Assembly: GCA_029866125.1 (NCBI GenBank)
Contig: JARWZZ010000009.1
Location: 1 to 64,000, forward strand
Source of the DNA: Limnobacter sp.
GTDB taxonomy: Bacteria; Pseudomonadota; Gammaproteobacteria; Burkholderiales; Burkholderiaceae_B
DNA length: 64,000 nucleotides
Direction: 5' to 3'
Shown in pieces: positions 54,694-59,145 of the stretch. Each line of letters opens with the position of its first letter. Position 1 is the stretch's first letter. Under the pieces are notes generated by a model, which had not been told where the DNA came from, did not search any database, and worked only from the letters and a program-made list of their open reading frames with translations. The position numbers were made by a program, and so were the translations under genes.

Positions 54694-55089
54694 ATGAAAG
54701 AAAAGTCTTGCCATGCATTTCGCGTATTTAAAACCAGATGGTTTTCAAAAGCTGCCAAAAAGGAATCAATTTCCGATTCGGAGTTGTGCTTAGCAATCAC
54801 GCAAGTATTGAATGGACAGGCAGAAAACCTCGGCGGAGGTGTATTTAAGAAGCGTCTCAACAAAAATATGCATAGAGCGCTTCTACTCACTCAGTCCAAA
54901 AATCATTGGGTTTATGCCTATTTGTTTGCTAAGAATCAGCGCCAGAACATTGATGATTTGGAGTTGATTGAATTTCGAAAACTGGCCGATCTGTATTCTT
55001 TAATGAGCGATAAAGACATAGCCAAAGCAGTGATGAACAAAGAATGGATTGAGATTTGTCATGACAAAGAAACAGAAATTCAAAAGTGA
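54694..55089 (+). CDS. RelE/HigB-like toxin (PF06296 type)
   Basis: 131 aa. The central part KTRWFSKAAKKESISDSEL, LGGGVFKKRLN, KNHWVYAYLFAKNQR and LIEFRKLADLY follows the RelE-like toxin pattern in which toxin precedes antitoxin. It would be a ribosome-dependent mRNA interferase. The C-terminal 20 residues extend beyond the core. There is no ribosome binding site before the ATG. It overlaps the antitoxin gene by 29 bp. Confidence 0.75.
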   Translation: MKEKSCHAFRVFKTRWFSKAAKKESISDSELCLAITQVLNGQAENLGGGVFKKRLNKNMHRALLLTQSKNHWVYAYLFAKNQRQNIDDLELIEFRKLADLYSLMSDKDIAKAVMNKEWIEICHDKETEIQK

Positions 55090-55384
55090 TGCGTTTGAAG
55101 CGATTTATTCCAGTGTGGAAGGATTGCATAAGGCCGGTGTAGTTAGCAAAGCAACATTGCGCAAATTTCAGGAGTCTTGTATTGAGACACCGCCACAATT
55201 TGAGCCCAAACAGATCAAGCGAATTAGGGAACTGAACAACGTCAGTCAGCCTATATTCGCCAAATATTTGAACACCACAGAATCCACGGTGCAAAAGTGG
55301 GAGTCTGGTGCCAAACATCCAAGCGGAATGGCTCTCAAGCTATTAGCTATTGTGAAAAAACATGGACTTGAAATATTGAATTGA
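55061..55384 (+). CDS. XRE-family HTH antitoxin, HigA/NadS-like
   Basis: 107 aa from the ATG at 55061. The C-terminal HTH is clear: IKRIRELNNVSQPIFAKYLN, ESTVQKWESGAKHPSG. It should neutralise the upstream toxin and repress the operon. The toxin-antitoxin order and the HTH make a HigBA-type pair. It borders the attC cassette array. Confidence 0.8.
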   Translation: MTKKQKFKSDAFEAIYSSVEGLHKAGVVSKATLRKFQESCIETPPQFEPKQIKRIRELNNVSQPIFAKYLNTTESTVQKWESGAKHPSGMALKLLAIVKKHGLEILN

Positions 55385-55504
55385 ATTGTAAAAGTTGAAT
55401 TTTCACCTGAAAGAAGGTGTTAAATCTGGGGGTCGTAATTTCGGCCAAAGCGGACATGAAGCTCTCGACTTATAGCGTCTCCAAGGTGATCTTGAACCGA
55501 CGTT

Positions 55505-55571
55505 GAATAACGCCCGGATTAACCAGCAAAAATGCGAAGCATTTTCGTCCGTGTTGAGCCTACAGTTAGGC
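55505..55571 (-). repeat. attC recombination site D (67 bp), end of the array
   Basis: On the minus strand the site runs from R'' GCCTAAC (fits RYYYAAC) to R' GTTATTC, with imperfectly complementary L boxes (GGCTCAAC and GGTTAATCC) and a central hairpin AAAATGC/GCATTTT. It lies 36 bp after the stop of the 55607-56209 gene. No further cassette follows at lower coordinates. Confidence 0.7.
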
Positions 55572-55606
55572 TGGGGCATGGAGTGAAATTGGGTGAAATT
55601 CAGCTG

Positions 55607-56209
55607 TTATTCGTACAGGAGAACTTCTCGTATGTTTAGGGTCTGTATTGCCTGTTCTACTCTAGATCTCACCTCACTGGCTTCTGTGCACAGAGTGACC
55701 ATGGATATCCGATCTGGGACGTATCCGATCTCTAAGTTCACAGGATCAAAAATTCTCAGCGCAAACGTGTCAACTTTGGGTGCTTGAACTTGTACATGAA
55801 TTTCAGAATACGTCGTATAGGCACGCTCTGATAGGAGGTCGTCTAGCCGTTCGTCTATGTGCTCCCATGAGTTGCGTACAGCCAGAGATTGAAGTGTTGG
55901 CAGTTGAGGGCTGCCCAGAAGCGCGATTAGCGCCGTTGAGCGAGTTGCTGCCTTATGTGCTCTCTTGCCTTTCCGATCTCCTAGAAACAAGGAGCGAGAC
56001 ACCGCAGCAGCGGAAGTTAACAGTAGAGTGCAATCGGCGGCAATATCGATGGGTGGATAGGAGAGACCGTCGTCCACCCCCTGGTCTAATGCTTTCCAAT
56101 GTGATGCCGCTGCTTTAAGACGATCAGATGAGCTCGCGATATGCCGGCAACTGAGGTCCGCAGAAAGTAAGTGCATCAATGCCGGGAAATTTGAGCTGCG
56201 TATGGTCAT
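55607..56209 (-). CDS. Cassette gene, hypothetical protein
   Basis: 200 aa from the ATG at 56209; the track start at 56266 lies inside the upstream attC and is rejected. It is mostly helical, with no signal peptide, membrane segment or catalytic motif that I recognise (MTIRSSNFPALMHLL at the N-terminus, VNLEIGYVPDRISMVTL near the C-terminus). The single-gene cassette context makes it an accessory gene of unknown function. Confidence 0.6.
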   Translation of the reverse strand: MTIRSSNFPALMHLLSADLSCRHIASSSDRLKAAASHWKALDQGVDDGLSYPPIDIAADCTLLLTSAAAVSRSLFLGDRKGKRAHKAATRSTALIALLGSPQLPTLQSLAVRNSWEHIDERLDDLLSERAYTTYSEIHVQVQAPKVDTFALRIFDPVNLEIGYVPDRISMVTLCTEASEVRSRVEQAIQTLNIREVLLYE

Positions 56210-56248
56210 GTTTTGCCTAGGAATAACCAAGACGTGTGTTTGCGAAAA

Positions 56249-56298
56249 GCATAACGCTTTGCTCACCGGAAAATCGGGAGCGTAGCGAATTGTTATGT
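56249..56298 (-). repeat. attC recombination site C (50 bp)
   Basis: Minus strand: R'' ACATAAC and R' GTTATGC are complementary at six of seven positions. L boxes CGCTACGCTC and GAGCAAAGCG pair at eight of ten, and a CCG/CGG mini-stem with an A/T loop sits in the centre. This is short, close to the minimum for attC. It lies 4 bp after the stop of the 56303-56908 gene. Confidence 0.7.
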
Positions 56299-56302
56299 TT
56301 CT

Positions 56303-56908
56303 TCATTCTCGAAGCCGCTCCTTATACATCTTTTCGACTCCGTCAACGGCACTTTGAATCTTCTGGGTAAATTCATCTTTGTCATTTACGTAGTAGACAA
56401 TTTTGTCGTTCGCCTCGACCCTTTCAGGGCTACGATCAACTTGTGCGCCTGGCCCGGCATAGGCGCCCTTCAGCCAAAAGTGGAGCCAAATCTCTGCTCG
56501 CAGAGTACCGATCAGATCCTGAATTGGCTGGAAGCAATCTGTAACTTCAGTTCCCCAAATTGCTCTCGCCTCAAGGGCGAGTGCTCGCAATTCAGATCGT
56601 TTTTCGTACAGGCTTGTCAGGCGCTCCGAATAAATACGCTGCTCTTCGTCAAGACTGCGTCCAGCTTCAACTTCCTCTTTGCGCAAAAACAGCATTGGGC
56701 TACGAACTGCCTGAATCGCATCTTGAATTTGATATGTAGTAATCAGGATATTCTTAGCAACCTGAAACTTGGATGTGCCGTGGAGTTGTCGACGCCATGT
56801 GCTTAAGCCCAGACCGCCTATGACGAGGGCACCTAATGTGCCAATAATCGCAAAGACGTCTTTGGTAAGACCGAGGTCCGCTGCGGTCAGGGTAAAGCAG
56901 ATGCTCAA
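56303..56908 (-). CDS. Cassette gene, single-pass membrane protein of unknown function
   Basis: 201 aa starting at TTG 56908, supported by a GGAG box 6 nt upstream and 15 bp after the attC core. One transmembrane helix (VFAIIGTLGALVIGGLGL) is followed by a long cytoplasmic helical domain (QVAKNILITTYQIQDAIQAV, SLYEKRSELRALALEARA). Such anchored helical proteins are common among integron cassettes and some take part in phage defence, but no known domain is visible. Confidence 0.65.
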   Translation of the reverse strand: MSICFTLTAADLGLTKDVFAIIGTLGALVIGGLGLSTWRRQLHGTSKFQVAKNILITTYQIQDAIQAVRSPMLFLRKEEVEAGRSLDEEQRIYSERLTSLYEKRSELRALALEARAIWGTEVTDCFQPIQDLIGTLRAEIWLHFWLKGAYAGPGAQVDRSPERVEANDKIVYYVNDKDEFTQKIQSAVDGVEKMYKERLRE

Positions 56909-56923
56909 CGGTCACTCCAAAAA

Positions 56924-56995
56924 ACATAACGTAAAGGTGACCGGCACGTTGCGGCAAGAGGCCGCAACGTATCCGAGTCGACCGACCTGTTAGAG
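56924..56995 (-). repeat. attC recombination site B (72 bp)
   Basis: Minus strand: R'' CTCTAAC, R' GTTATGT. A strong central hairpin GTTGCGGC/GCCGCAAC (8-bp perfect) lies between L boxes AGGTCGGT and CCGGTCACCT. It starts 5 bp after the stop of the 57000-57530 gene. Confidence 0.75.
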
Positions 56996-56999
56996 CTCG

Positions 57000-57530
57000 T
57001 CACATCACCCTCCACCGCACCACCCTGTATCCCTCAAAGATGCGAAACGTGACGTACACCGAGCGAAAACAGCCGAGATCATGTACTGCGGTCTGTGCCC
57101 ACATCTTCTCTACCAGCGCCATAGAACCTGAATTCAAGAACGGATAGTGAATGGAGACGAGCAAGTACCCCGGCCCGTACTTGTCTCTAAATGGAACGTA
57201 CCCATTTTTCTCCAACTTGGCCTTGACCGCCGCCACGAATTTCAGTGCGAACTCTTCATCCATGTTAATAAACGGGCCGTTACCTACTGAAACGTGCGCC
57301 TCGCCGGGAGTGGCGTACGAGTTCAAGTCTCGCGCATACGAGTCATTCCAGTACGCGGTAACGACTTCTGCCCACCGCGTAGTTCGGCCTGATTGAATGA
57401 TCGCTTCAGGCGGATCAGGCTCAGCAATGACACGATAGCTCGCGCGATGTCGACGATTCAGTTCATTGATAAGAAGTCCGACTTGAAATCGCTCGTGCTT
57501 TTCTTTGATGGTGCTGCGAGGGTTTGGCAC
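57000..57530 (-). CDS. Cassette gene, hypothetical protein
   Basis: 176 aa starting at GTG 57530, 7 bp after the attC core. Residues 30-60 (YRVIAEPDPPEAII then TRWAEVVTAYW) have the spacing of a PD-(D/E)XK-like nuclease site, but the lysine is not obvious, so I do not assign it. The rest is mixed alpha/beta without membrane segments. Function unknown. Confidence 0.6.
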   Translation of the reverse strand: MPNPRSTIKEKHERFQVGLLINELNRRHRASYRVIAEPDPPEAIIQSGRTTRWAEVVTAYWNDSYARDLNSYATPGEAHVSVGNGPFINMDEEFALKFVAAVKAKLEKNGYVPFRDKYGPGYLLVSIHYPFLNSGSMALVEKMWAQTAVHDLGCFRSVYVTFRIFEGYRVVRWRVM

Positions 57531-57536
57531 GGAGAG

Positions 57537-57613
57537 CTCTAACGTTTGGTTAAGGGGCCGGCTTTAGCCGGTCCAGAGTGAGCGAAGCGAACGACTTGAA
57601 CCACTAGTTAGAC
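57537..57613 (-). repeat. attC recombination site A (77 bp)
   Basis: The clearest site of the array. Minus strand: R'' GTCTAAC (exact RYYYAAC), L'' TGGTTCAAG and L' CTTAACCA pair with one extrahelical base as in canonical attC, and R' is GTTAGAG. The centre holds two hairpins, including CCGGCTAAAGCCGG and GTTCGCTTCGCTCAC. It follows the TIR-like gene by 11 bp. Confidence 0.85.
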
Positions 57614-57624
57614 CAGCCAAGTGA

Positions 57625-58419
57625 TTACCAATTGCTGATTGCATAACCACACGCCTTGAGCTCTTTTGATACTTCAAATCTCCAGCCGCCAGCTGCATCT
57701 AAGTCAACATAGACCACCCCACTGATGTCATTCGGAGTTTCTATTTCTCCCTTGACCAAGGCGCAAACATTCTCCCTGCCTAGCTTTGCCATAAGATATC
57801 CATGTTCGAAAACAACGTTTTGTCGTGCTCTGTTTTTGGCAGGAATTTTTGATTCATGTACGCCCCGGCCGTGATCACAGGGTGTGTATAAAACTAGAGC
57901 AAAGTCAGCGTCGTTTGAATAGTGCTCAATTTTCTCGATGATGGTCATGCCTGAACTGGCTTGCTCATGAAGTATGATTGCTTTAAGGCCTAAGCTTTCT
58001 ATGAAGCGACTAACCTCATGTTTAGCCTCGTTATCTCTGCCATGAACAATAAAGACATTTCTTTTGTTTCTAGCTACCGACTTATTTGTCGCGCCTGATA
58101 TCGTGCTTTGAGTTTTTACTGGCGCTGCTGTTCCGAACTCTAGTGAGTCCAGTAGCGGTGTGAATTGCTCGGAAAGGTACGTTCTTCGTTCTGCATATGT
58201 AGAAAACTTTGGCTGTATAAAGCCCCAGAAAGAGTCCAGGTTTCTATGCAGCTTTAACCATGCTGGTAATTGATTGGAAATTTGGTGATTGCTAAGTAAT
58301 TCATAGCGAAGTTTTTCATATTCGCTAGAGTCTGCGGTTTTGCCTGTGGCATGAGCAATCAATAAATTTAACAGGTAACTTACTTTTTCAAAATCGTTTT
58401 TTAGGAAATTTGTGCTCAT
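57625..58419 (-). CDS. Cassette gene, TIR-like nucleotide-binding protein (PF10137 type)
   Basis: 264 aa. The N-terminal 110 residues form a helical domain seen in front of many such proteins. The TIR-like domain starts at about 120: NVFIVHGRDNEAKHEVSRF, LHEQASSGMTIIEKIE, ADFALVLYTPCD, and RARQNVVFEHGYLMAKLG with the conserved Glu E205 expected to be catalytic for NAD cleavage. Relatives act as effectors in CBASS, Pycsar or short Argonaute-type phage defence, triggered by a nucleotide signal. No cyclase or sensor gene is beside it, so it would act alone or with a distant partner. First cassette of the array. Confidence 0.8.
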   Translation of the reverse strand: MSTNFLKNDFEKVSYLLNLLIAHATGKTADSSEYEKLRYELLSNHQISNQLPAWLKLHRNLDSFWGFIQPKFSTYAERRTYLSEQFTPLLDSLEFGTAAPVKTQSTISGATNKSVARNKRNVFIVHGRDNEAKHEVSRFIESLGLKAIILHEQASSGMTIIEKIEHYSNDADFALVLYTPCDHGRGVHESKIPAKNRARQNVVFEHGYLMAKLGRENVCALVKGEIETPNDISGVVYVDLDAAGGWRFEVSKELKACGYAISNW

Positions 58420-58781
58420 TCACGGAGTACCGGTTCAGTTTGTTTTAGGTCTAACTTGATTTATCGAACAATAACGGCGATATCCATTTATCCGCGCATG
58501 GCAAATGTTTACATTAAATAAACTATTTCAAATATTTGCCAAGCATCGCATGAACACGATGAAAAATAAACCTTGGTTATTTACCACCAAACGTTGAGCC
58601 TGGAACTCGATTTCGAAGCTCAGAACCATCATCGACAACTGCCAAAGTTCTTAAGACTGCTTTTGCAAATAACTCAAACGCTTCGTCCATAAGTCCAAAT
58701 GACCGCTTCGGCCAAAATCTAGACGTTGAATACACTTATTGGGCCAAGGAATCCGTCTGCAATAGCTACCATGCTCACTTG
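58420..58781. other. Noncoding stretch at the head of the cassette array
   Basis: No gene is visible in these 362 bp. They are AT-richer than their surroundings and hold an R-box-like GTCTAAC at 58448-58454, inverted repeats GGCAAAT/ATTTGCC and CATCG/CGATG, and a second R-box-like pair (AAATAAC at 58667, GTTGAAT at 58725). These could be remains of an attI or a degenerate attC, but I cannot fold a convincing site from them. No integrase gene is present. Confidence 0.4.
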
Positions 58782-59051
58782 TTATCGACGAGACTCTTGA
58801 ACATCTTTTGCCAGCCAAGCTTTGATAAGAGACTGATAGGGAATGTCTCTTTTGTTTGCTTCGATTTTGATGCTATCCAATAATCCTTCGGGAAGCCTCA
58901 ATGAAATTGTCTTGGTTGAGGGTTTAAGATTCGGAAATATTGCCCGCTGGGCCCTACTCAAATCGAGGTATTCACTTGAATCATGGCTTTCCCAGAATTC
59001 ACGTTCATCTTTCTCGGTTTCGAATTTTGGAAGTGACTTAAGCTCTTTCAT
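58782..59051 (-). CDS. brnA: BrnA-like antitoxin (CopG/RHH)
   Basis: 89 aa. The N-terminal acidic helix (FETEKDEREFWESHDSSEYLD, quoted as DEREFWESHDSSEYLD) and the C-terminal RHH (TKTISLRLPEGLLDSIKIEA, IPYQSLIKAWL) are typical of BrnA/DUF4415-like antitoxins. It is complete, but the toxin gene before it is truncated, so this is an orphan antitoxin. The 14-bp overlap with the toxin remnant preserves the original operon arrangement. Confidence 0.8.
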   Translation of the reverse strand: MKELKSLPKFETEKDEREFWESHDSSEYLDLSRAQRAIFPNLKPSTKTISLRLPEGLLDSIKIEANKRDIPYQSLIKAWLAKDVQESRR

Positions 59052-59145
59052 AAATCAGTTTTTCCTTTCTGTGCATATTCCGTGCAGCGGTTACACGAAT
59101 CAGGTTATCCATTTCCCTCATGGTAAACGTGATGCATGAACCCCC
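59038..59145 (-). pseudogene. C-terminal remnant of a BrnT-like toxin (DUF497)
   Basis: The open frame reads ITFTMREMDNLIRVTAARN then RKEKLIYERA before the stop at 59038. This matches the last 35 or so residues of BrnT (FTxRxxxxIRxISARxAxRKERxxYE). The remaining N-terminal part, about two thirds of the toxin with its active site, is absent: a stop precedes the frame, and the response regulator gene begins to end 10 bp away. It was not in the ORF track. The break marks the right edge of the island. Confidence 0.7.

Follow-up and report, generated by a model that had tools for sequence, protein, structure and literature searches.

A putative cassette-carrying inverted-repeat unit with candidate defence genes in a Limnobacter genome

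In a window of 64,000 nucleotides, the whole stretch of a Limnobacter sp. contig that was analysed, four genes that on sequence grounds are four independent single-gene integron cassettes, headed by a TIR gene, were found inside a 3.3 kb unit whose two ends recur elsewhere in the genus. The first-pass annotation had proposed that three of these genes, here called P1, P2 and P3, are candidate defence genes. That proposal proved plausible for P1 and weaker for P3, while no support for it was found for P2. We regard the family of units as a more interesting result than the readings of the individual proteins.

The three open reading frames named by the first-pass annotation are present (55607-56209, 56303-56908 and 57000-57530), all on the minus strand and after the TIR gene, giving the order TIR, P3, P2, P1 with a shared orientation and close spacing of all four. 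As each of the three has relatives in other bacteria (with best identities of 36% for P1, 31% for P2 and 51% for P3), they are, judged by homology, genes and not chance reading frames. The TIR label was borne out by Pfam and PADLOC (see the features below), and P1, P2 and P3, the two soluble ones of which (P1 and P3) had been described as being without recognisable domains, gave no meaningful Pfam, NCBIfam or PADLOC match. In these searches none of them fell into a clear metabolic or housekeeping family, and metabolic families were rejected for all three, as the family searches gave no match. When the window proteins were scanned against phage, plasmid and viral sequences, few or no relatives were returned, and a PHROGs search gave nothing useful; locus L016 was rejected as a relative, being a false match to a phage gene on its wrong strand.

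A cassette was defined by one open reading frame, a downstream attC and an R'' that pairs with that cassette's own first 7 bases. The annotation's "cassette array" resolved into four one-gene cassettes with minus-strand boundaries at 58455, 57543, 56930, 56255 and 55511, the last of them GTTATTC, as follows.

57544-58455, minus strand: cassette 1 (TIR), boundary GTTAGAC, R'' GTCTAAC 7/7 complementary
57625-58419, minus strand: TIR-domain protein, 264 aa, CAP12/Pycsar-type, PDC-S35 (PF10137, 5.9e-40; PADLOC PDLC05007, 4.1e-79)
57537-57613, minus strand: attC of the TIR cassette, sharing 77-90% identity with segments of G531, G532 and G003
56931-57543, minus strand: cassette 2 (P3), boundary GTTAGAG, R'' CTCTAAC 7/7 complementary
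57000-57530, minus strand: P3, 176 aa, predicted PD-(D/E)XK-like fold with a non-canonical active site (AlphaFold pLDDT 77.5, pTM 0.76)
56924-56995, minus strand: attC of the P3 cassette, with 75-98% identical pieces in G522, G519 and G520
56256-56930, minus strand: cassette 3 (P2), boundary GTTATGT, R'' ACATAAC 7/7 complementary
56303-56908, minus strand: P2, 201 aa, N-terminal membrane segment and helical cytoplasmic part (hydropathy and family alignment)
56249-56298, minus strand: attC of the P2 cassette, short (50 bp), bottom-strand fold z -3.4
55512-56255, minus strand: cassette 4 (P1), boundary GTTATGC, R'' GAATAAC 6/7 complementary
55607-56209, minus strand: P1, 200 aa, HEPN-type RNase candidate (R112-N113...H117; invariant RNxxEHxDExxD)
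55505-55612, minus strand: attC of the P1 cassette, overlapping the P1 stop codon, with an 84% identical 64-bp piece in G529

The assignment is based on the single reading frame of each cassette, on the R'' pairing and on the likeness of the attC to those of the same lineage. Congener loci contain segments that share 75-98% identity with the attC of the TIR and P3 cassettes, and shorter pieces that match the P2 and P1 sites; several of the matching loci also hold an attI-like site near the integrase IntI. Bottom-strand folding was better than that of shuffled sequence for every attC except the TIR site (z -1.6), with z of -4.5, -3.4 and -2.7, and was strongest for the P3 site (-19.9 kcal/mol). 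A scan for attC discriminated poorly from shuffles (7 observed at the loosest setting, against a mean of 2.3 and a maximum of 7), and the cassette claim is therefore not based on it. An Rfam search of the array region gave no match, attC not being modelled in Rfam.

The gene of P1 was taken to start at the ATG at 56209, which gives the 200 aa quoted previously; a longer, 219-aa reading frame from a GTG (55607-56266) was rejected, as its start falls inside the preceding attC. The closest relative of P1, with 36% identity, is carried on a Shewanella plasmid, and through it and a relative from another species that lies beside a cassette-like boundary (L017) a family of nine sequences was gathered. 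At identities of 15-37% the motif RNxxEHxDExxD is invariant in all nine, and ten columns in total do not vary (M1, R90, L94, R112, N113, E116, H117, D119, E120 and D123). In the rule described for HEPN RNases (PMC3710099), the arginine of Rx4-6H is followed by a polar residue, and R112 N113...H117 of P1 follows this rule in every member of the family. Relatives of P1 were also seen to follow an AbiGi gene (2.2e-57) in two viral contigs (L022 and L023), and in a third (L021) a relative lies alongside LmuA-like (2.5e-113) and PDC-S15/FRG (2.7e-89) genes. The defence reading of P1 thus gained the invariant RNxxEH, these neighbours and the precedent, given below, of a cassette-encoded HEPN, although Pfam HEPN did not match P1 or any other member of its family, and its profile gave weak, off-topic matches and no HEPN among PDB sequences. 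An AlphaFold model built from four sequences predicted helices at a pLDDT of 39. On balance, it is quite probable that P1 is a HEPN RNase. A HEPN protein encoded by an integron cassette has been solved (PDB 3jrt, PMC3710099) and, like P1, it combines a HEPN-type motif with a one-gene cassette; since P1 has no sequence match to any HEPN in the PDB, the sequence families differ. Two of the loci deserve mention in their own right. In viral contig L021 (1-5600), P1-family genes lie together with LmuA-like, HEPN-like and FRG genes in what is likely a defence cluster, and on a Shewanella plasmid that carries mcr-4.3 a P1 relative stands in a row with an integrase N-terminal gene, a ParE/CopG pair and a VasI-like gene (L013, 1012-5573).

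P3, which starts with GTG, has relatives of 45-53% identity in betaproteobacterial genomes, where they are solitary genes, several of them chromosomal and placed between housekeeping genes; a more distant relative in another species (L020) adjoins cassette-like repeats. The first-pass annotation had pointed to the segment EPDPPEAII...RWAEV for its nuclease-like acidic pattern and had asked for a search for the PD-(D/E)XK fold. A model built from seven sequences has an H-E-E-E-H-E core (H5-28, E33-36, E43-47, E50-60, H63-69 as a short additional helix, H92-109 and E121-128, by DSSP with the topology read by eye), with most core blocks at pLDDT above 80. Its order of helix, three strands, short helix, helix and strand is that of the alpha-beta3-alpha-beta core of PD-(D/E)XK proteins (PMC1913061). 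The segment singled out earlier falls on the motif II and III strands of this core, although its D39, tried as the catalytic residue, was rejected, as relatives have D, N, T or E there. The candidate active-site positions are Glu13 in motif I, Glu42 at the start of strand 2 in motif II and Glu55 on strand 3 in motif III, together with Lys105 in the motif IV helix, all four at places where an active-site residue belongs. The canonical motif II aspartate and the motif III (D/E)xK are lacking; the lysine position of the latter is Val57 in P3 (E55-V-V57) and threonine in its relatives, which is why we speak of a PD-(D/E)XK-like fold and not of a member with a canonical site. The predicted topology was set against a PDB fold search that was not significant: TM-scores were low, no match reached E <= 0.001 or fell below E 0.08, and the weak ones (E of about 0.1 or worse) included Hjc and further PD-(D/E)XK proteins in a mix with unrelated ones. 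A comparison with a viral structure library gave nothing significant and the P3 profile had no matches among PDB sequences. All told, we think it probable that P3 has the PD-(D/E)XK fold.

Whether such a protein cuts is a separate matter, and P3 might instead be an inactive PD-(D/E)XK-fold binder of nucleic acid or protein. The replacement of the motif III lysine by Val57 and of the motif II aspartate by glutamate speaks for this alternative, to which we give some credence while not preferring it, as conservation in the relatives is complete or nearly so at Glu13, Glu55, Lys105 and the acidic position 42, suggesting that the site works. A similar departure from the canonical site is found in DUF1626, a PD-(D/E)XK family with threonine at motif III and basic residues in the motif IV helix (PMC1913061). 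It shares with P3 the core topology, the threonine in place of the lysine (in the P3 relatives) and the basic helix residues, whereas P3 has no detectable sequence similarity to it in Pfam.

The description of the remaining gene product as a membrane-anchored helical protein held up. P2 starts with TTG, preceded by GGAG, and has a single hydrophobic segment near residue 18 (Kyte-Doolittle 2.11). Seven relatives have the membrane segment followed by GLxTWKRQLxG; among the P2 relatives, one lies beside a phage terminase-like reading frame (L008), two are on plasmids, and another, in a different species, is located 3' of bioB with cassette-like sequence behind it (L066). Judged from hydropathy and alignment, P2 spans the membrane once and belongs to a family that is thinly spread. 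As to its function, the searches gave the family and the cassette-like relative and nothing more.

From these results defence is a plausible leading reading for P1 and a possible one for P3. P1 would act as a HEPN-type, metal-independent RNase that, upon a phage or other stress trigger, halts translation or growth. P3 may bind or cut nucleic acid through its modified active site, in which the helix residue Lys105 could replace the motif III lysine, and P2 might act at the membrane as an effector or sensor. As a role common to all, anti-phage or anti-element defence by growth arrest would be the most likely, with each cassette acting on its own, and we lean slightly towards the explanation that combines an array in a carrier with such a shared function. 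The main competitor holds that the cassettes are adaptive or selfish cargo unrelated to phage, be it stress toxins (with P1 as a dormancy RNase), orphan antitoxins, immunity proteins or neutral passengers. Most integron cassettes are without known function, dormancy under stress has been proposed for integron HEPN proteins (PMC3710099), the P3 relatives of betaproteobacteria are solitary chromosomal genes, and toxin-antitoxin-like genes (HigBA and BrnA) flank the unit. Yet the array contains a TIR gene of PDC-S35, and P1 relatives stand beside AbiGi and LmuA-like genes in viral contigs, so that we hold cargo unrelated to phage to be unlikely, if still a serious contender. Carriage of defence genes by cassettes is in itself not new. 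Integron cassettes can encode defence (Darracq 2025, Kieffer 2025 and Getz 2025, reviewed in PMC12409362), so the general idea is already known, and the earlier remark that a cassette array with one defence-like gene frequently has more of them is in line with this published work. The integron defence stores share with our array single-gene cassettes of unknown function beside a defence-type gene; the array differs in lying outside an IntI-bearing integron, and its defence role is putative. The TIR gene, for its part, strongly matches the PDC-S35/CAP12-Pycsar TIR proteins, but unlike in CAP12-Pycsar there is no cyclase gene in the unit.

When the array DNA was searched against the genus, no gene bodies were matched, just two repeated flanks, which delimit the unit with the following features.

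55439-58717, minus strand: whole unit, a putative integrase-less, attI-bearing cassette carrier of 3.3 kb, both ends of which recur together
58451-58717, minus strand: left end of about 267 bp with the outer inverted repeat TTTTGGCCGAAGCGGTCAT (recurrent copies, 11-copy alignment)
58451-58494, minus strand: attI-like site adjoining the first cassette boundary, 91-96% identical to IntI-linked sites
55439-55511, minus strand: right end of about 73 bp with the outer inverted repeat TTTCGGCCAAAGCGGACAT on the plus strand (recurrent copies, alignment)

The unit ends carry TTCGGCCGAAGCGGACAT; the outermost 18 bp or so of the left and right ends are inverted repeats of each other, and the alignment of the copies breaks off at TTCGGCC on both sides. 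Long left ends, counted at no less than 150 aligned bp, were found in 24 copies in 12 of the 17 genus genomes, the unit's own genome included, and right ends in nine copies in the genus, with a tenth in L112. Six units, the one in the window among them, have both ends with order and orientation kept. The cargo of the five sister units (G521:C4 of about 1.2 kb, G532:C1 of 6.6 kb, G000:C17 of 3.5 kb, G531:C3 of 2.9 kb and G528:C13 of 1.6 kb) differs from that in the window. No transposase gene is present in the window unit and no IntI in any unit read. Like MITEs and other non-autonomous transposons, the units have terminal inverted repeats, occur at multiple locations and are without a transposase, and we read them as non-autonomous elements that would move cassette arrays. 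IntI, which is present in some congeners, would have loaded the cassettes at the element's attI in trans, and a transposase, likewise in trans, would move the element.

At the corresponding place in three congeners (G532, G530 and G003) urtA directly adjoins the response regulator, with no array or integron between them. The extra DNA of the window relative to congeners also holds a HigBA-like pair and BrnA, so the insertion of the unit itself is not isolated; as no target-site duplication was seen by eye at the five copies inspected either, both the mobility of the units and the loading by IntI in trans are what we infer. Four of the sister units carry cargo that matches defence-type families, namely a gene of DUF2971/PDC-S31, an NsnA-like GmrSD_N gene with a RiboL-PSP HEPN after it, an AriA/NsnB-type AAA protein and a BrxL-C-like gene. 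The GmrSD_N and HEPN genes, adjacent and overlapping by 4 bases, lie in a second unit in the window's own genome (G000:C17; L086, 841-4308), and the G531:C3 unit (L104, 1386-4336) pairs its AAA/AriA-type gene with a 265-aa protein without assignment. No defence cargo was evident, by eye, in the G528 unit. Because matches to AAA proteins are unspecific, an enrichment of unit cargo for defence is a suggestion only. It is with this reserve that we tentatively put forward a genus family of non-autonomous inverted-repeat elements, each with its own attI, in which a chromosomal integrase would load cassettes at scattered mobile sites and whose carriers would tend to accumulate defence genes.

No IntI above the family cut-off was found in the unit's own genome (G000), and, as this genome is 93% complete, its absence is likely, not proven. 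Full IntI genes are present in the congeners G532 and G520, and that of G528 is above the cut-off but in two pieces. Judged from the sequences, IntI decay is common in the genus. A 44-bp piece matching the site in the window lies about 110 bp from the IntI start in five congeners (G532, G520, G528, G519 and G530), and the site is called attI-like for this reason. The IntI-linked copies match merely 44-49 bp of the 267-bp left end, and the 223-bp segment outward of the attI in the window is absent from them. Broken or partial IntI genes were seen beside this same attI-like site at G528:C5, G519:C1, G530:C106 and C112, and G529:C4.

With four attC, the array is a CALIN in the sense of at least 2 attC without a nearby IntI (PMC9024848). 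In the IntegronFinder 2.0 survey integrase-less arrays were about as frequent as complete integrons, and they are usually explained by decay. It could be argued that the array is the decayed remnant of a sedentary integron whose intI was lost on the spot, its repeated ends being incidental intergenic repeats; the IntegronFinder authors proposed degraded integrons as the origin of such arrays (PMC9024848), and several congeners do have a broken IntI beside the same attI. Against this, IntI-linked attI sites are without the 223-bp outward segment, the long left end is found at many places and paired at six with a distinct right end, and no integron separates urtA from the regulator in congeners, all of which makes decay in place improbable. 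A single co-operating defence operon, in which the TIR protein would be the effector while the other three would sense or regulate, would fit the same orientation and tight spacing, but it was rejected as very improbable, because every gene comes with an attC and a boundary of its own and the cassettes were therefore joined one by one, while no locus read held relatives of more than one of P1, P2 and P3 and the four gene bodies were not found together among the 16 congeners. An array of separate cassettes in a repeated carrier is the reading that we favour.

If this reading is true, a repeated attI-bearing carrier would offer a testable active origin of integrase-less arrays, instead of decay, and would explain how single-gene defence cassettes arrive at new chromosomal places. 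Independently of the carrier, P1 and P3 each stand for a so far unannotated family that has nuclease-like signatures. MITE-flanked class 1 integrons and integron mobilization units are known in which a cassette segment is moved by short inverted repeats. The integron mobilization unit is mentioned in PMC3189936. Like these, the unit in the window holds a cassette segment apparently moved by short inverted repeats in the absence of its own transposase; in contrast to them, it is without IntI, has the attI-like site inside its left end, is bounded by two unlike ends and not by two copies of one MITE, and carries its cargo in the chromosome of an environmental betaproteobacterium. With CALINs it shares several attC in a row with IntI not nearby, whereas it keeps an attI-like site and sits in an inverted-repeat element that recurs across the genus. 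As MITE-flanked integrons and integrase-less arrays are already known, the unit is a variant of both; no description of an attI-bearing MITE or repeated carrier was found in the open-licence literature.

Further observations concern the surroundings of the units. At 54694-55384 on the plus strand a RelE-family toxin gene (PF06296, 2.2e-31) and an overlapping HTH antitoxin gene form the HigBA-like pair, which sits just outside the unit and within the extra DNA relative to congeners. The BrnA/CopG-type antitoxin at 58782-59130 on the minus strand (PF12441, 4e-34) is an orphan, preceded by what is apparently just the C-terminal end of a BrnT-like toxin. In L104, a second left end in the opposite orientation (927-1159) adjoins the sister unit of G531:C3.
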